Assembly: GCF_001298715.1 (NCBI RefSeq)
Contig: NZ_CDSC02000272.1
Location: 1 to 17,058, forward strand
Direction of reading: 5' to 3'
DNA: 17,058 nt
Source of the DNA: Bathymodiolus azoricus thioautotrophic gill symbiont
GTDB lineage: Bacteria; Pseudomonadota; Gammaproteobacteria; PS1; Pseudothioglobaceae
Shown here in pieces: positions 8,474 through 14,906 of the stretch. The position numbers were made by a program, and so were the translations under genes. How positions within the stretch are numbered: the first letter of the stretch is position 1; the number at the start of each line of letters is the position of its first letter. The notes under the pieces were generated by a model. It made no database searches and had not been told where the DNA came from. It saw only the letters and a program-made list of their open reading frames with translations.

Positions 8474-10834
8474 TTATGCGGTCAGGCTTGCAAACAACAA
8501 TGGCAACTGCTCAGGTAATTTCTCAACATTATCAACTATGGTGTAATTATTTTCACCAAAGATACGCTTAACATAGGTGTCTGCTTGAGGATCAAGCGTT
8601 AAACAATAAGTTAGAACACCTGTAGAATACAATTCTTCTACGGCTTTTTTAGTGTCAAAACGCAGATGTTGCGGATCACTTTCGTCAATATCGGCAGGTT
8701 CACCATCAGTGACCAATAAAATCAATTTTCGTTTTTGTTGTTGTTTATGCAAGTGTGTGCCGGCGTGCCTAAGGGCTGCGCCCATACGGGTAGACAAGCC
8801 ACCTTTCATACCTGCTAAACGAGATTTAGCGTCATCATCAAAGTGCTGATTAAAGTCTTTTAAGCGGAAGTATTGCACATCATGACGACCATCAGAAGCG
8901 AAGCCGTGTAGTGCAAATGGGTCGCCAATACCTTCAATCGCAGTCGACACCAAAGTTGCCGCTTCGCGGGTTAATTGTAAGACTGTTTTATCTGAACCCT
9001 CCATAACTTCATTGGTAGATTCTGACAAGTCTAGCAACACCACTACTGATAAATCACGGGTATTTAGCACATTGCGCATAGTGATTCTTGGATTGGGTTG
9101 CTCACCCATACGAATTGCAATCATGGCATCAATTGCTGCATTAATATCCACTTCATCGCCATCTTCCATACCGCGTTGTCGTTGAACGCCAGCAGGGGCT
9201 AATAAATCAATAATTTGACGGATGCGGTGTGCAATTGACTTATATTCAGTCAAGATATTTTCAATATCTTCAGGGTTGCCTTTTGGTGGTCTACGCTCAA
9301 AAATGGTTGCCCAATCAGGGCGATGTAGTTGGATTTGATAATCCCATTCTTGATAATGAAATGGATCAGAAACTGGCTCTTTACCCCAGGCATCGTTAAA
9401 CGACTTGGCGTCATCAGATAAATCATCTTCATAGGTGCGCATAATATCTGTACAAGTCCAGATCACTTGCGCATCATCGCCTGCCAATTCACAATCAACT
9501 TCATGTGCCATCATTAATGGACTCACTTCATAGCGCACTTGCTGCTGGCTCGCAGCCACATATTCCACACCCTTGTCCCAATTAATATCTTCATACTGCC
9601 ATATAATACGATTATCATCACGATAATCAACACGATAACGCTCTAAAATTCTAAGACTGGGTACTTCTTTTCGACCTTCAAAAATATTATAAAGCTCAAC
9701 ACCCATTAGCCATGCAAAATGATTATCGTCTTGATTGGCTTCAATTTTTTCATGAAATTTAGCTGCAAATTTATTGAGTTGTTCGTCATTACCTTTTTCA
9801 TCCTCATCTAATAATTGCAATGCGAATCCCTCAAGAATGCTCATGGTTTTATGTTCGGCAGGCTCTTCATGTTCAAGCATTATCAATGAGCGCCATAATT
9901 TCTTCAAACCAGGAAATTCATTAACAGCTTTATATTCAACACGCGCATCTTCTAAAAGACCAATAAAAAACATCTGTGCAGGGCTGAGCTGCTCGGCAGA
10001 CATTGGCTGACTGGTATACATCATATGCGCAGCCATATGTGCCACGGTAGCACGATAAATTTCCAAACCTTCAATGCTCTGATCATCACTTAATTTAATA
10101 TCATCAAGTGCATCTGGCACATAGAGAATTTTGTTTTCTATATAGGGTCTAAAATCCGTATATTCTGCGCCTGTAGGACGAATAAAGAAATCACGCCCCC
10201 ATAAGGCACGCAAATAAAAATTTAACTTACGCTGTACTTTAATAAATAAAACACCTCGGCGTTCTCTCTCTAGCATAGCACGAGAATCAGCCGACTCAAG
10301 TGAGAAATAAGAAGTAAGATTGTTATAATCTCTACGATAAGCCTTAGCGCCAAAATTAGCCCAACGGCGTAACCCACTCAAGGTTAACTTTGATAATAAT
10401 TCGTCAATATGCATCAACATCGGACGCAAACCACGAGCCGCTGTTGATACTAACTGATGGATTAAGGTTAAATAACCACGCACTAATTGCGCATCACCAA
10501 GATGACGGGCAACATTCGGCAAGGTAGACAATAGCAATATAATAACTTCACCAGAAGTCATTGATGAGGCTTTCATCGCTGCCGTAACACAATCAGGAAT
10601 AATATCCTCACCACACTCTTTAGCCATCTGTGGCATCACTTCAAGATAAGTCATCACCAAGTCATTACCACGACCTAAACCACACAGCGCTTTAGCGCCA
10701 TCCAGATAGTCTTTAAGTCCAGCAGGAGAAATAACACGCACAGCATCCTGGAATGTTGCCTCTAAAACTTCCTTAACTTCAGGCGCGATTTCTACTAAGA
10801 AATCAGCGTAGTCTTCTAATAGTATTTTTGACAT
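8474..10834 (-). CDS. cbbO: RuBisCO activase subunit CbbO (VWA domain)
   Basis: A 786-residue adaptor of the CbbQO activase, which removes inhibitory sugar phosphates from form I RuBisCO. The large N-terminal part (about 1-570) is helical. The C-terminal von Willebrand factor A domain (about 590-786) has an intact MIDAS metal site: LDLSES (D602, S604, S606), T682 in LSTRMG, and D710 in VTDGEP. In the studied CbbQO system the VWA domain binds RuBisCO and one CbbO sits on a CbbQ hexamer. A VAHMAAH stretch (H266, H270) recalls the HExxH motif of some relatives but lacks the Glu. The gene follows cbbQ after 31 bp and is directly abutted by the 84-residue gene. NorD is the main alternative family, but context decides for CbbO. 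Confidence 0.94.
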   Translation of the reverse strand: MSKILLEDYADFLVEIAPEVKEVLEATFQDAVRVISPAGLKDYLDGAKALCGLGRGNDLVMTYLEVMPQMAKECGEDIIPDCVTAAMKASSMTSGEVIILLLSTLPNVARHLGDAQLVRGYLTLIHQLVSTAARGLRPMLMHIDELLSKLTLSGLRRWANFGAKAYRRDYNNLTSYFSLESADSRAMLERERRGVLFIKVQRKLNFYLRALWGRDFFIRPTGAEYTDFRPYIENKILYVPDALDDIKLSDDQSIEGLEIYRATVAHMAAHMMYTSQPMSAEQLSPAQMFFIGLLEDARVEYKAVNEFPGLKKLWRSLIMLEHEEPAEHKTMSILEGFALQLLDEDEKGNDEQLNKFAAKFHEKIEANQDDNHFAWLMGVELYNIFEGRKEVPSLRILERYRVDYRDDNRIIWQYEDINWDKGVEYVAASQQQVRYEVSPLMMAHEVDCELAGDDAQVIWTCTDIMRTYEDDLSDDAKSFNDAWGKEPVSDPFHYQEWDYQIQLHRPDWATIFERRPPKGNPEDIENILTEYKSIAHRIRQIIDLLAPAGVQRQRGMEDGDEVDINAAIDAMIAIRMGEQPNPRITMRNVLNTRDLSVVVLLDLSESTNEVMEGSDKTVLQLTREAATLVSTAIEGIGDPFALHGFASDGRHDVQYFRLKDFNQHFDDDAKSRLAGMKGGLSTRMGAALRHAGTHLHKQQQKRKLILLVTDGEPADIDESDPQHLRFDTKKAVEELYSTGVLTYCLTLDPQADTYVKRIFGENNYTIVDNVEKLPEQLPLLFASLTA

Positions 10835-10865: not shown

Positions 10866-11681
10866 TCAACCTAGGAAAGTTTGAACTGCTGCATGAAGTG
10901 TATCACGCATGTCTGGATCATCGGTGAGTGGCGTAATCATCGTCATAGAACACGCCGCTTCAGCATCAACGCCTTTGGCAATTAACTGACCAGCGTAGAC
11001 CAATAAGCGTGTTGAAATACCCTCGTCTAAGCCATGTCCCTTAAGGTTTCTAGCGCGGTGTGCGATTTGCACTAATTTCTCAGCCATGATTTCATCAACA
11101 CCTGATTCTTTGGTGACAATAGCCACTTCTAATGCAGTTTCCGGATAATCAAAATCCAAGCCACCAAATCGTTGTTTGGTAGACTGTTTAAGGTCTTTCA
11201 TTAATGACTGATAACCAGGATTGTAAGAAATAACCAATTGGAAATCAGGGTGTGCCTTAACCAATTCACCCTTCTTATCAAGTGGTAATTCGCGACGATG
11301 ATCGGTTAATGGATGAATAACAACTGTGGTATCTTGGCGCGCCTCAACAATCTCATCTAAATAACAAATCGCACCAATACGCGCAGCTGTTGTTAAAGGT
11401 CCATCTTGCCATTTTGTACCATCTTTATCCAATAGGAAGCGGCCCACTAAATCAGATGCGGTCATATCTTCATTACAGGCAACACTAATTAAAGGTCTGC
11501 CTAATTTCCAAGCCATATATTCAACAAAGCGTGATTTGCCACAACCTGTCGGACCTTTGATCATCATCGGCATACGCACATCGTAAGCTGATTGATACAG
11601 CTCTACTTCATTATCAACAGCTTCATAATACGGCTCATCTTTAATAATGTATTGTTTTGGATCTATTTTTATATCAGACAT
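10866..11681 (-). CDS. cbbQ: RuBisCO activase AAA+ ATPase CbbQ (MoxR family)
   Basis: A 271-residue MoxR-type AAA+ ATPase forming the motor ring of the CbbQO activase. Walker A is GPTGCGKS (43-50) and Walker B is ICYLDE (105-110), followed by EARQDT. Sensor and arginine-finger regions follow (SYNPGYQSLMKDLKQSTKQRFGGLDF, then GISTRLLVYAG). Length and motifs match CbbQ; NorQ is the close relative, and the RuBisCO genes nearby settle the choice. The ATG has GGAG about 8 nt upstream. It sits between the 105-residue gene (26-bp gap) and cbbO (31-bp gap). Expression should depend on read-through of the terminator after cbbS, or on an unseen internal promoter. Confidence 0.95.
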   Translation of the reverse strand: MSDIKIDPKQYIIKDEPYYEAVDNEVELYQSAYDVRMPMMIKGPTGCGKSRFVEYMAWKLGRPLISVACNEDMTASDLVGRFLLDKDGTKWQDGPLTTAARIGAICYLDEIVEARQDTTVVIHPLTDHRRELPLDKKGELVKAHPDFQLVISYNPGYQSLMKDLKQSTKQRFGGLDFDYPETALEVAIVTKESGVDEIMAEKLVQIAHRARNLKGHGLDEGISTRLLVYAGQLIAKGVDAEAACSMTMITPLTDDPDMRDTLHAAVQTFLG

Positions 11682-11707: not shown

Positions 11708-12025
11708 TTATTCATCTTCATCATCAGTTTCATGCTCACCCGACCAACCTGCTTTTTTAGCATTTTGGATGGCAACATCATGAATACGCTGATGCCGTTC
11801 GCGCAATTCTGGCGGCAGGTAACTCACCATGCAACCATACTTATCCCACTCAGCATTAACCTCTTGCAACAAGGCATCAATGCCGGCTAAATTCCAACCT
11901 TCACAAGTCTGCGTTTCCTTAATCAATCCAAATACCCACGCATCTCTAATAACCTTACCAATGGTGGTCATGCCGCCATTAATTTCATTATTGATGCCTA
12001 CATATATTTTAGGTTTATTTGCCAT
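11708..12025 (-). CDS. small acidic protein of unknown function between cbbS and cbbQ
   Basis: A 105-residue soluble protein starting MANKPKIYVGINNEINGG. It has an ordered-looking core with ARG/TRP landmarks (IGKVIRDAWVFGLI, TCEGWNLAGIDALLQEV, SYLPPELRERHQRI) and an acidic tail ending ETDDEDE. There are two cysteines, at 41 and 65. The open frame extends upstream to 12088, but that part is encoded by the palindromic hairpin and is repetitive in sense, so I take the ATG at 12025. The ribosome binding site before it is weak. I cannot name the family. Its place between RuBisCO small subunit and activase suggests a role in RuBisCO assembly or activation; this is inference. Confidence 0.8.
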   Translation of the reverse strand: MANKPKIYVGINNEINGGMTTIGKVIRDAWVFGLIKETQTCEGWNLAGIDALLQEVNAEWDKYGCMVSYLPPELRERHQRIHDVAIQNAKKAGWSGEHETDDEDE

Positions 12026-12044
12026 AATTTTACTATCTTTAAAA

Positions 12045-12094
12045 GGTTTTTTGTCTTTAAAAGTCTGGAAGCAAACTTTTAAAGACAAAAAACC
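12045..12094 (-). repeat. perfect 20-bp inverted repeat (hairpin) upstream of the 105-residue gene
   Basis: The arms at 12045-12064 and 12075-12094 are exact reverse complements, with a 10-nt loop at 12065-12074. On the minus-strand transcript the stem begins GGTTTTTTG and ends CAAAAAACC. The 5' arm reuses the 10 bases 12085-12094 that also form the 3' half of the cbbS terminator, so the two stems cannot coexist. It can form only in transcripts that pass the terminator. At 20 uninterrupted pairs it is near the length favoured by RNase III, and it ends 19 nt before the ATG of the next gene. Confidence 0.85.
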
Positions 12095-12120
12095 CCAACA
12101 ACAAGGTTAGGGTTTTTTGT
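12085..12120 (-). terminator. intrinsic terminator after cbbS
   Basis: On the minus strand, 16 nt after the cbbS stop, a stem pairs 12120-12106 with 12099-12085 (15 pairs, one G-U) around a 6-nt loop. Its core is CCCUAAC/GUUGGGG, followed by six U then GUCUUU. The U run can also pair with the A run before the stem, so the shape can terminate in both directions. It should reduce transcription into the downstream genes relative to cbbL and cbbS. Confidence 0.82.
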
Positions 12121-12136
12121 TAGAACTCAGTGAGTA

Positions 12137-12484
12137 TTAAACCGTTTGACCACGGTAAATAACCATTGAAGTTCCTGCACATTGAGCAAAGTTGTCTAAA
12201 CCTAGCAAACGAACATGGTTGTCCGGATGTGCAGTATGACAATTTTCAATTTCTTGAAGGATTGCATCAACATCTGTTTCACCAAACATTGGCAACTTCC
12301 ACATGTACCAATATGAACCAGCAGCATGCTGTGGCTCAGTATGTTCTACACTTGGGTTCCAACCTTTGTCAACAATATATTGAATCTGCACACGCATCTG
12401 GTCCGCAGTTAAGGTAGGTAGGTATGAGAAAGTCTCGAATTTACGACTTTCAGCGTTACCTAAACTTGATTGATAATCTTGCAT
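12137..12484 (-). CDS. cbbS: RuBisCO small subunit, form I
   Basis: A 115-residue small subunit of ribulose-1,5-bisphosphate carboxylase/oxygenase, which caps the large-subunit octamer to make the L8S8 enzyme. The hallmark [12 protein letters not shown] lies at 57-68. The N-terminal [23 protein letters not shown] is typical of proteobacterial form IA small subunits, which lack the long C-terminal extension of red-type (IC/ID) forms. The ATG is preceded by AGGAGA at 12491-12496. The gene begins 14 bp after cbbL, the usual arrangement for equal expression. It is followed within 20 bp by the terminator, consistent with cbbLS forming the main transcript. Confidence 0.97.
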
Positions 12485-12498
12485 ATTATTTCTCCTAT

Positions 12499-13917
12499 TT
12501 ATTTATGAGCCGCGTCAATCTTATCAACGGTATCAAATTCAAACTTGATCTCTTTCCAAGTTTCCATTGCGATTGCCAATTCAGGACTGTGCTTAGCTGC
12601 TGAAGTAAGAATATCTTTACCTTCTTTCTCTAATTCACGACCAGAGTTACGAGCTTCAACACAAGCCTCAACCGCAACACGGTTAGCTGCTGCGCCTGCT
12701 GCGTTACCCCATGGGTGACCTAGCGTACCACCACCAAACTGTAAACAAGAATCGTCACCGAAAATGTTTACTAGTGCTGGCATGTGCCATACATGAATAC
12801 CGCCAGAAGCAACAGGGATTACACCCGGCATAGAGCCCCAGTCTTGATCAAAGAAAATACCGCGTGAGCGATCTTCCTTAATAAATGAATCACGCATAAT
12901 GTCAATCCAACCTAGCGTTGCTTCACGATCGCCTTCAAGCTTACCTACAACGGTACCTGAATGCAAGTGATCACCACCAGATAAACGCAAAATCTTAGCA
13001 AGGACACGGAAGTGAATACCGTGGTGCGGATTACGGTCTAATACTGCGTGCATTGCACGGTGAATGTGTAATAACATACCGTTATCTTGACACCATTGTG
13101 CTAATTGCGTATTGGCACTCCAACCACCAGTAATGTAGTCATGCATAATGATCGGGGAACCGATTTCTTTAGCGTATTCAGCACGCTTCATCATTTCATC
13201 AGATGTTGGCGCTGTAACATTTAAATAGTGACCTTTACGCTCACCCGTTTCTGCTTCAGCTTTCTCAATTGCTTCTTGTACGAAGTCAAAACGAGCTCTC
13301 CAACGCATAAATGGCTGTGAGTTAATATTTTCATCGTCTTTGGTGAAATCTAAGCCACCACGAAGACCCTCATAACAAGCACGACCATAGTTCTTAGCTG
13401 ATAAACCTAACTTAGGCTTAATAGTACAACCCAATAAAGGACGACCATATTTGTTAAGAATATCACGCTCCATCTGAATACCTTGTGGCGGACCATTACA
13501 AGTCATAACATAAGCGATTGGGAAACGAATATCTTCCAGTCTTAATGCACGCAATGCTTTAAAGCCAAATACATTGCCCACCAAAGAAGTCATTACATTA
13601 ACGACTGAACCTTCTTCAAATAAATCAATCGGATAAGCAACGAATGCATAGAAACATGTATCGTCACCGGGTACATCTTCAATCGCATAGGCGCGACCTT
13701 TATAGTGATCCAAATCTGTCAACAAATCTGTCCATACTGTTGTCCAAGTACCTGTAGAAGATTCAGCTGCAACTGCTGCTGCAATTTCTTCTCTAGGAAC
13801 GCCCTCTTGTGGTGTTACTTTAAAACACGCCAGGATATCCGTTTCTAACGGGGTATAATCCGGCATCCAATAAGTATCGCGGTAATCTTTTACACCCGCA
13901 TCATAAACTTTAGCCAT
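12499..13917 (-). CDS. cbbL: RuBisCO large subunit, form IA
   Basis: Catalytic subunit of RuBisCO, fixing CO2 onto ribulose-1,5-bisphosphate in the Calvin cycle; 472 residues, full length. The active site is complete: K167 and K169 in TIKPK; the carbamylated lysine and metal ligands in DFTKDDE (K193, D195, E196); H286 and R287 in HIHRAMH; H319; and loop 6 lysine K326 in [10 protein letters not shown]. Overall sequence is proteobacterial form IA. Residue D81 in the IEDVPGDD segment appears to correspond to the acidic residue (numbered 82) reported as the docking site for the CbbO metal-binding domain; the alignment is mine by eye. ATG at 13917 has AAAGGAGA 8 nt upstream. It is first in the operon and divergent from cbbR. 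Confidence 0.98.
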
Positions 13918-14012: not shown

Positions 14013-14906
14013 ATGATTAATTACACCCTTAAGCAACTCTATAGCTTTGAAGCGGTTGTGCGCTTAAAAAGTTTCACCAAAGCAAGTAAAGAACTTTATA
14101 TTACCCAACCTGCAGTGTATATGCAAATACAGCAATTGATACAAAATATCGGTGCAGAATTACTCAGCACTAAAGGCAAAAAAGTTTCACCCACGCATAT
14201 TGGTAAGAAATTCTACCAAACCTGTTTAACAGTGATTGCTAAGTTGGAACAATCAAAGGCAGATATCGAGCAAACCTTAAACCCTGACTCTGGGCATTTA
14301 GAGATTTCAGTTGCTACCACCACCAATTCTTTTGTTTCACGCGTATTGGCACAATTTAAACAACAATACCCTGATATGACCTTCCACTTGGAAGTAACTA
14401 ACCGTAAACTCTTGTTAGAAAAATTATCTAATCACAGTTCTGATTTGGTGGTTATGGGTGAGCCTCCTGCGGATATGTCGCTGATTACACAGCCATTTAT
14501 GGAAAACCCACTCATTGCCATTGCCCACCCTGATCACCCTTTGCTTAAAAACAAGAAGAATTCTATTAAGGCACTCAGTAAAGAAACTCTAATTACGCGT
14601 GAACAAGGCTCTGGAACGCGTATTACTATTGAACGCATTCTAGGTATGAAGTTTAACTCTGAAATCGAAATTAACTCAAATGAAGCAATCATTGAAGCAG
14701 TTCAAGCAGGGCTTGGCATTGGCTTTGTATCTAAACATACCGTTAAACTGGAACTTGAAAATGACATTATCAAACAACTGAATATTGATAAATTTCCAGT
14801 TATGCGTCATTGGCATACTGTACATAGTAACAAAACAGAACTTTCACCCATTGCTCAACGCTTTAAAGCGTTTATCATTGAAAGTGGGCAAAAGGTCTTT
14901 AGCTAA
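14013..14906 (+). CDS. cbbR: LysR-type transcriptional regulator of the cbb operon
   Basis: A 297-residue LysR-family regulator with an N-terminal winged helix-turn-helix (about 4-62) and a periplasmic-binding-protein-like effector domain (about 90-290). Divergent placement 95 bp from cbbL and the TLKQLYSFEAVVRLKSFTKAS start are as in CbbR, which activates Calvin-cycle operons in response to metabolites. The recognition helix is unusual. It reads TQPAVYMQIQQL where most family members have TQPAVSxQIxxLE, and the following wing region has GAELLSTKGKKVSPTHIG, without the common LFxR and LTxAG residues. The effector domain is intact (GSGTR, EAVQAGLGIGFVSKHTV). Its last 8 bp overlap the end of purU on the other strand. 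Confidence 0.9.
   Translation: MINYTLKQLYSFEAVVRLKSFTKASKELYITQPAVYMQIQQLIQNIGAELLSTKGKKVSPTHIGKKFYQTCLTVIAKLEQSKADIEQTLNPDSGHLEISVATTTNSFVSRVLAQFKQQYPDMTFHLEVTNRKLLLEKLSNHSSDLVVMGEPPADMSLITQPFMENPLIAIAHPDHPLLKNKKNSIKALSKETLITREQGSGTRITIERILGMKFNSEIEINSNEAIIEAVQAGLGIGFVSKHTVKLELENDIIKQLNIDKFPVMRHWHTVHSNKTELSPIAQRFKAFIIESGQKVFS

Follow-up and report, generated by a model that had tools for sequence, protein, structure and literature searches.

The gap behind cbbS, the RuBisCO small-subunit gene of the Bathymodiolus azoricus thioautotrophic gill symbiont, contains an intrinsic terminator and a second hairpin, hp2, which is a conserved, lineage-restricted RNA element without an Rfam match (none in the whole window at the gathering threshold). 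Judged from its anatomy, hp2 is most likely a processing or stability hairpin of read-through RNA. The chances appear about evenly balanced that the arrangement as a whole is a leaky terminator combined with such a read-through-only hairpin, placed between cbbLS and the genes small ORF, cbbQ and cbbO. The window, i.e. the whole stretch of DNA that was analysed, comprises 17,058 nucleotides (contig NZ_CDSC02000272.1), and the features considered here are the following:

14013..14906, plus strand: LysR-type regulator, CbbR-like, divergent from cbbL (Pfam LysR domains)
12499..13917, minus strand: cbbL, RuBisCO form I large subunit (Pfam PF00016 and PF02788)
12137..12484, minus strand: cbbS, RuBisCO small subunit (Pfam PF00101, E 8.5e-39)
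12085..12120, minus strand: intrinsic terminator with a 15-bp stem and its U-tract at 12092-12087 (sequence, folding and family comparison)
12085..12094, minus strand: ten bases common to both stems, namely two core G, the six-T tract and GT (sequence; pairing split computed)
12045..12094, minus strand: hp2, a 23-bp hairpin with its loop at 12071-12068 (folding, family occurrence and constraint)
11708..12025, minus strand: small ORF of 105 aa, conserved, between cbbS and cbbQ (kept in relatives; no family assignment)
10866..11681, minus strand: cbbQ, RuBisCO activase AAA+ subunit (Pfam PF08406 and PF07728)
8474..10834, minus strand: cbbO, activase adaptor with a VWA domain (Pfam PF00092; named from position and domain)

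In the window, 111 bases separate cbbS from the small ORF. No match to the 105-aa ORF was obtained in Pfam, NCBIfam or the PDB. This ORF is the next gene after cbbS in 55 of 118 loci, a figure that rests on a motif rule and is an undercount, and it is missing from the 19 loci of genus g5, where cbbQ comes directly after the cbbS gap. The top NCBIfam model for the LysR-type regulator is CbbR, with 241 bits, below the cut-off of 450. In the scan of named genomes, the nearest cbbS is that of the Bathymodiolus heckerae thiotrophic symbiont (97% amino-acid identity), followed by those of a gammaproteobacterial MAG (86%) and Candidatus Ruthia (85%). A gene for RNase III, with a match above the model cut-off, is encoded in the symbiont's own genome. 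A promoter scan of 12000-12140 listed none on either strand, and no -10-like box common to the hp2 relatives was found by eye. Loci L003 and L014, and loosely L005, which have no hp2, possess a TATAAAAT-like box directly behind the terminator U-run, possibly the promoter of the genes downstream.

A sequence-only reading of the window had proposed an intrinsic-type terminator after cbbS, and this was borne out by the stem, its U-run and the family comparison. Its stem joins 12120-12106 to 12099-12085 on the minus strand in 15 pairs, including one G.U, with an energy of about -18.7 to -19.4 kcal/mol. The core comprises 7 bp (12112-12106 with 12099-12093, CCCTAAC/GTTGGGG) and is followed by six T, so that 12120-12085 has the G+C-containing stem and the U-run directly behind it that define an intrinsic terminator. 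A simple terminator scan of the window did not list this element, probably because the U-run sits within the extended stem. The family search covered 83 genomes, with a cbbS match in 41 and none in 42. Five of the 41 matches were left out: three stand before what we take, from a motif, to be a carboxysome shell-type gene, a fourth ends at a contig edge, and the fifth matches at 37% and has an ambiguous next gene. A terminator, called by a crude script rule, follows cbbS in 35 of the 36 comparable loci, the exception being L017, and is therefore ordinary. Of the 80 loci that the named genomes provided, L033-L035 were already present among the family loci and were dropped, and six of the resulting 77 were unclassifiable. 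The same rule called a hairpin plus a run of four or more U in 44 of the 71 that were left and none in 27, many of which have a strong hairpin lacking a U-run. At some of the wider loci (gaps of at least 400), moreover, cbbQ was taken as the next gene and the small ORF missed.

Both stems drawn by the sequence-only reading were recovered base for base. Against 200 dinucleotide shuffles each, none of which folded as well, the terminator stretch scores z -4.95 and the hp2 stretch z -9.05. In hp2, 12094-12075 forms 20 Watson-Crick pairs with 12064-12045. Counted inward, the stem has 23 pairs, including one U.G, and it reaches 25 if two outer G.U are added, at about -30 kcal/mol. The outer 8 pairs (12094-12087 with 12052-12045) use the terminator U-tract, and the inner 15 join 12086-12072 to 12067-12053. 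Because 12094-12085 belongs to both stems, the two cannot both be complete. The element ACAAAAAACC is present at 12120-12111 and again at 12054-12045. This ten-base repeat, which had been described for the window, holds there but is not a general trait, as both copies are exact, by eye, only in G000 and G056 among the nine hp2 genomes. Across these nine carriers hp2 has 20 to 25 contiguous pairs including G.U, with 20 or 21 in five of them. In all nine it offers the approximately two turns of regular double strand that, together with a gene for the enzyme, are asked of an RNase III substrate. It is, besides, a stable conserved structure between genes of one run, which in structure and conservation makes it a candidate intercistronic stability or processing hairpin.

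Searches with an exact pattern and with a covariance model found hp2 in the same 9 of the 83 family genomes, which belong to two genera. Each carrier has it at a single place, invariably between cbbS and the small ORF, and this rules out a dispersed repeat or mobile palindrome. The covariance model was built from the nine carriers, so that their recovery is by construction and the informative part is that nothing else was found; 72 candidates were scored per genome under strict filters, which weak relatives may escape. Antisense scores of this model are lower in all nine genomes, which is no evidence on the strand, as the model itself was built on the coding strand. The order-level search spanned the same 83 genomes as the family search.

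The 36 comparable family loci include 12 with a terminator and a second hairpin (hp2 in nine), 23 with the terminator only and one, L017, with neither. Relatives lacking both inverted repeats, which the sequence-only reading had set against itself, are thus represented by L017 alone. The second hairpin is absent from 23 further loci and is therefore lineage-restricted and not obligatory. The small ORF is present at 17 family loci, of which nine have hp2, three a different or weaker second hairpin and five none (L003, L005, L008, L014 and L017). The three are L004, L011 and, with a weaker hairpin, L013, all with another sequence at the same place after cbbS. The second hairpins of L004 and L011 do not overlap the terminator U-tract. 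No second hairpin is present in any of the 19 genus g5 loci. From a complete genome of the same genus, 400 kb were sampled, including one stretch picked to contain that genome's cbbS, and scanned on both strands. The sample contains 48 terminator-like sites, of which two are followed by a stem of at least 14 pairs that begins no more than 25 nt from the start of the U-tract. Only at the cbbS site does the following stem begin inside the terminator's own U-tract.

The hp2 carriers do not form one clade. This grouping is rejected both on the tree of cbbL and cbbS (p-AU 1.4e-6; L015 only a third filled) and on that of the small ORF and cbbQ (p-AU 0.0085; most inner branches unresolved), and the presence and absence of hp2 need five changes on each of the two trees. 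Either hp2 is ancestral, with repeated loss or replacement, or it has spread by short-tract exchange. It is dispensable or replaceable, as it is absent from 74 of the 83 family genomes and its carriers are no clade. By its cbbL-cbbS sequence L003 belongs with L001 and L002, and by its small ORF and cbbQ with L014; this difference in partners upstream and downstream probably reflects a recombination break near the cbbS gap.

Evolutionary constraint on the second stem was supported. The 30 inner-arm bases of hp2 have a mean identity of 0.92 (92%) over 35 genome pairs, L009/L010, whose cbbS and arms do not differ, being excluded. Mean identity at fourfold sites in the same pairs is 0.75 for cbbS and 0.40 for the small ORF, and in every one of the 35 pairs the inner arms exceed both flanking genes. 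The small ORF, which starts 15 to 38 bases downstream of hp2, is the fairer neutral guide, since codon bias may raise the cbbS figure. The loop varies freely between genomes. Eight distinct sequences, read in the coding-strand sense, yield 106 Watson-Crick, 12 G.U, no A.C and 2 other cells for the inner 15 pairs, and 52 Watson-Crick, 7 G.U, no A.C and 5 mismatched cells for the outer 8. Five pairs between the U-tract and the downstream A-tract are kept in all eight. The compensatory changes that the sequence-only reading had suggested seeking in relatives are present to a small extent only. There is one double change in the stem, U-A to C-G in G069; the covariation score was reached by none of 500 shuffles, and none was as high in the share of paired cells (96.7% against 94.5% in the shuffles). 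On the other side, 15 of the 23 pairs are invariant, the two pairs with changes on both sides were equalled by 27 of 500 shuffles, and the pair types by 385 of 500. The formal covariation signal may be called positive but thin. The primary sequence of hp2 is conserved beyond the needs of a purely structural role.

The sequence-only reading had also taken the two stems to be mutually exclusive and the second to unfold the terminator, a structural switch in which hp2 would invade the terminator in read-through RNA. For each of the nine genomes, the full terminator with the rest of hp2, the core with full hp2, hp2 by itself and all intermediate splits were evaluated. In this energy enumeration, to which other folds are external, the best split keeps both hairpins in 9/9 genomes. 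The full terminator with the rest of hp2 and the core with full hp2 are 0.1 to 2.6 kcal/mol apart (at most 1.0 in seven of nine), and as these two side-by-side states are nearly equal in energy, the U-tract can, by the model, trade partners; a fold with hp2 as the sole hairpin lies 1.4 to 14.0 kcal/mol above the best split. When all folds are allowed, mean pairing of the core is at least 0.97 in seven genomes; the window reaches 0.67 and G058 0.01. The lowest-energy fold of the window gap (-34.4) combines hp2 with a different small upstream helix and lacks the terminator core; in the centroid (-33.1), core and hp2 stand next to each other. Exclusion and unfolding thus describe G058 and in part the window, but not the other seven genomes. 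Such a switch is consistent with the conserved pairing of the U-tract, with the near-equality of the two states and with the folds of these two genomes; against it stand the enumeration, the paired core of the majority, the restriction of Watson-Crick pairing by hp2 into the core to three genomes (G000, G058 and G056), and the timing, as unfolding after read-through would come too late for a termination event already missed. We consider it very unlikely, and on the modelled energies it would be at best a trait of a minority of carriers. Because the terminator is transcribed before it, hp2 can form only in read-through RNA, as the sequence-only reading had concluded, and, being made later, it cannot decide the termination event that has passed. 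An attenuator or antiterminator switch was rejected on this order of transcription and on the best splits, the deviation of G058 and partly of the window in the ensemble notwithstanding.

That hp2 is instead a back-up terminator in tandem with the first is unlikely. It does lie directly behind the first, and by eye a T-run of 4 to 6 follows it in seven of nine genomes (G000, G058, G056, G052, G059, G057 and G069), but G053 has only three T there and G063 no T-run, and the stem base is A-U rich, with A-U pairs or mismatches at the end in six of nine. With such a base and a U-run that is not conserved, hp2 lacks the form of an intrinsic terminator, and a terminating role would not require the conserved pairing of the upstream U-tract. 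A constraint at the DNA level, with hp2 as a palindromic operator, for example for the LysR-type regulator, appears quite unlikely. It would agree with the highly conserved primary sequence of the stem and with the shift of the cbbS-cbbQ non-coding region of a vent metagenome fragment by a LysR protein, as given in an excerpt of PMC5506194. If one mismatch is tolerated, the window has 17 copies of the motif CTTTAAAAG, six of them within 12037-12084; 9.65 were expected, and a count as high was seen in 10 of 200 shuffles. However, none of the nine inner stems is a perfect DNA palindrome, and on the coding strand five pair positions show G.U and none shows A.C (p about 0.03, one-sided sign test). 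These G.U pairs without A.C, together with the constraint on the arms, favour selection on the coding-strand RNA over selection on a DNA palindrome. The spacer between cbbR and cbbL contains one copy of CTTTAAAAG with a mismatch and no exact copy, and a CbbR-type DNA motif was rejected on this ground. Lastly, the arms might be kept alike by mutation, through template switching between quasi-palindromes or short-tract recombination, and not by selection. The scattered carriers, the change of partners of L003 across the gap with its probable break nearby and the A-tract copy that is exact only in some genomes would all fit this, but the arms are alike between genomes and not just within one, next to a small ORF whose fourfold-site identity spans 18 to 84% between hp2 genomes; the loops have diverged, and mutation alone would not be expected to leave G.U without A.C. 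This explanation is highly improbable.

The preferred reading, a leaky terminator with a read-through hairpin, may be set out as follows. RuBisCO is required in large excess over its activase. If the terminator after cbbS is leaky, many transcripts would end behind cbbLS, and those that run on into the small ORF, cbbQ and cbbO would carry hp2, whose 5' arm begins in the terminator U-tract. The two hairpins could stand next to each other, and the U-tract could switch partner. On the read-through RNA hp2 would act as a processing or decay-barrier element, through an endonuclease cut or through protection of an end, with RNase III as the leading candidate for a cut. The stability of cbbLS would thereby be uncoupled from that of the activase genes, with a possible effect on protein ratios, and the arrangement may raise the abundance of the RuBisCO message above that of the messages for its helper proteins. 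RNase III cleavage of hp2 is plausible. A more specific version, in which the U-tract is used twice, is rather doubtful: it would be the released 3' tail in terminated RNA and would be captured by the downstream A-tract in read-through RNA, completing a two-turn duplex, a mark for cutting or binding that read-through molecules alone would carry and that would set the RuBisCO:activase ratio, in a cis-acting RNA family new to Rfam and to the literature searched. The autotrophs considered here encode RuBisCO and activase in one gene run, and a terminator with a read-through-only hairpin would, if true, set their ratio in a compact manner. Other operons would be worth examining for a U-tract that serves both a terminator and a duplex formed later.

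Several known systems resemble parts of this arrangement. In the cbb operon of Ralstonia eutropha, a premature terminator right after cbbS, which lowers the downstream genes, was reportedly described by Schaeferjohann, Bednarski and Bowien in 1996. The two operons are alike in this terminator and differ in their downstream genes, and we know of no second conserved stem behind the Ralstonia terminator. With attenuators hp2 shares an RNA segment able to pair with either neighbour; it differs from them in that its alternative partner is transcribed after the terminator. Like the stems at which RNase III processes operons, hp2 is a regular intergenic double strand of 20 to 25 pairs, cleavage here being only a candidate; the 20 or 21 pairs of five of the nine carriers, however, are under the minimum target size of 22 nt used in an excerpt of PMC5371410. 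Intergenic hairpins shape operon stoichiometry in malE-malF (excerpt of PMC5927463) and in the puf operon (excerpt of PMC11354728). As in these two, a stable hairpin lies between the abundant upstream and the scarcer downstream products, which are here predicted. Unlike those described in the two excerpts, hp2 sits behind a complete intrinsic terminator and borrows its U-tract. The cbbLSQO cluster of Acidithiobacillus ferrooxidans is co-transcribed according to RT-PCR (excerpt of PMC2942843), and read-through past cbbS thus occurs in a relative of this operon type. In Candidatus Thiodiazotropha endolucinida, a distant symbiont, the median TPM of rbcS and rbcL is 97,217.9 and 25,842.7, and cbbQ is within the 40 most abundant transcripts, by the portion of PMC13137333 consulted; a large drop after cbbS is therefore not a given. 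No paper on this hairpin was among the matches listed in the open-access literature on cbb operons, RubisCO stem-loops, Bathymodiolus transcripts, operon stoichiometry and activase ratio.

Unrelated hairpins were also noticed elsewhere. Seven lucinid-symbiont loci, chosen by eye and mostly from Thiodiazotropha (L036, L038, L040, L071, L072, L074 and L088), possess a second hairpin of their own behind the cbbS terminator, common to the seven and about 85-135 bases after the cbbS stop; its sequence was not seen at L051 and L058 of T. endolucinida. In G056, three copies of an element (L134, L141 and L151) have a 20-bp perfect hairpin in a long reading frame and perhaps represent an insertion sequence.
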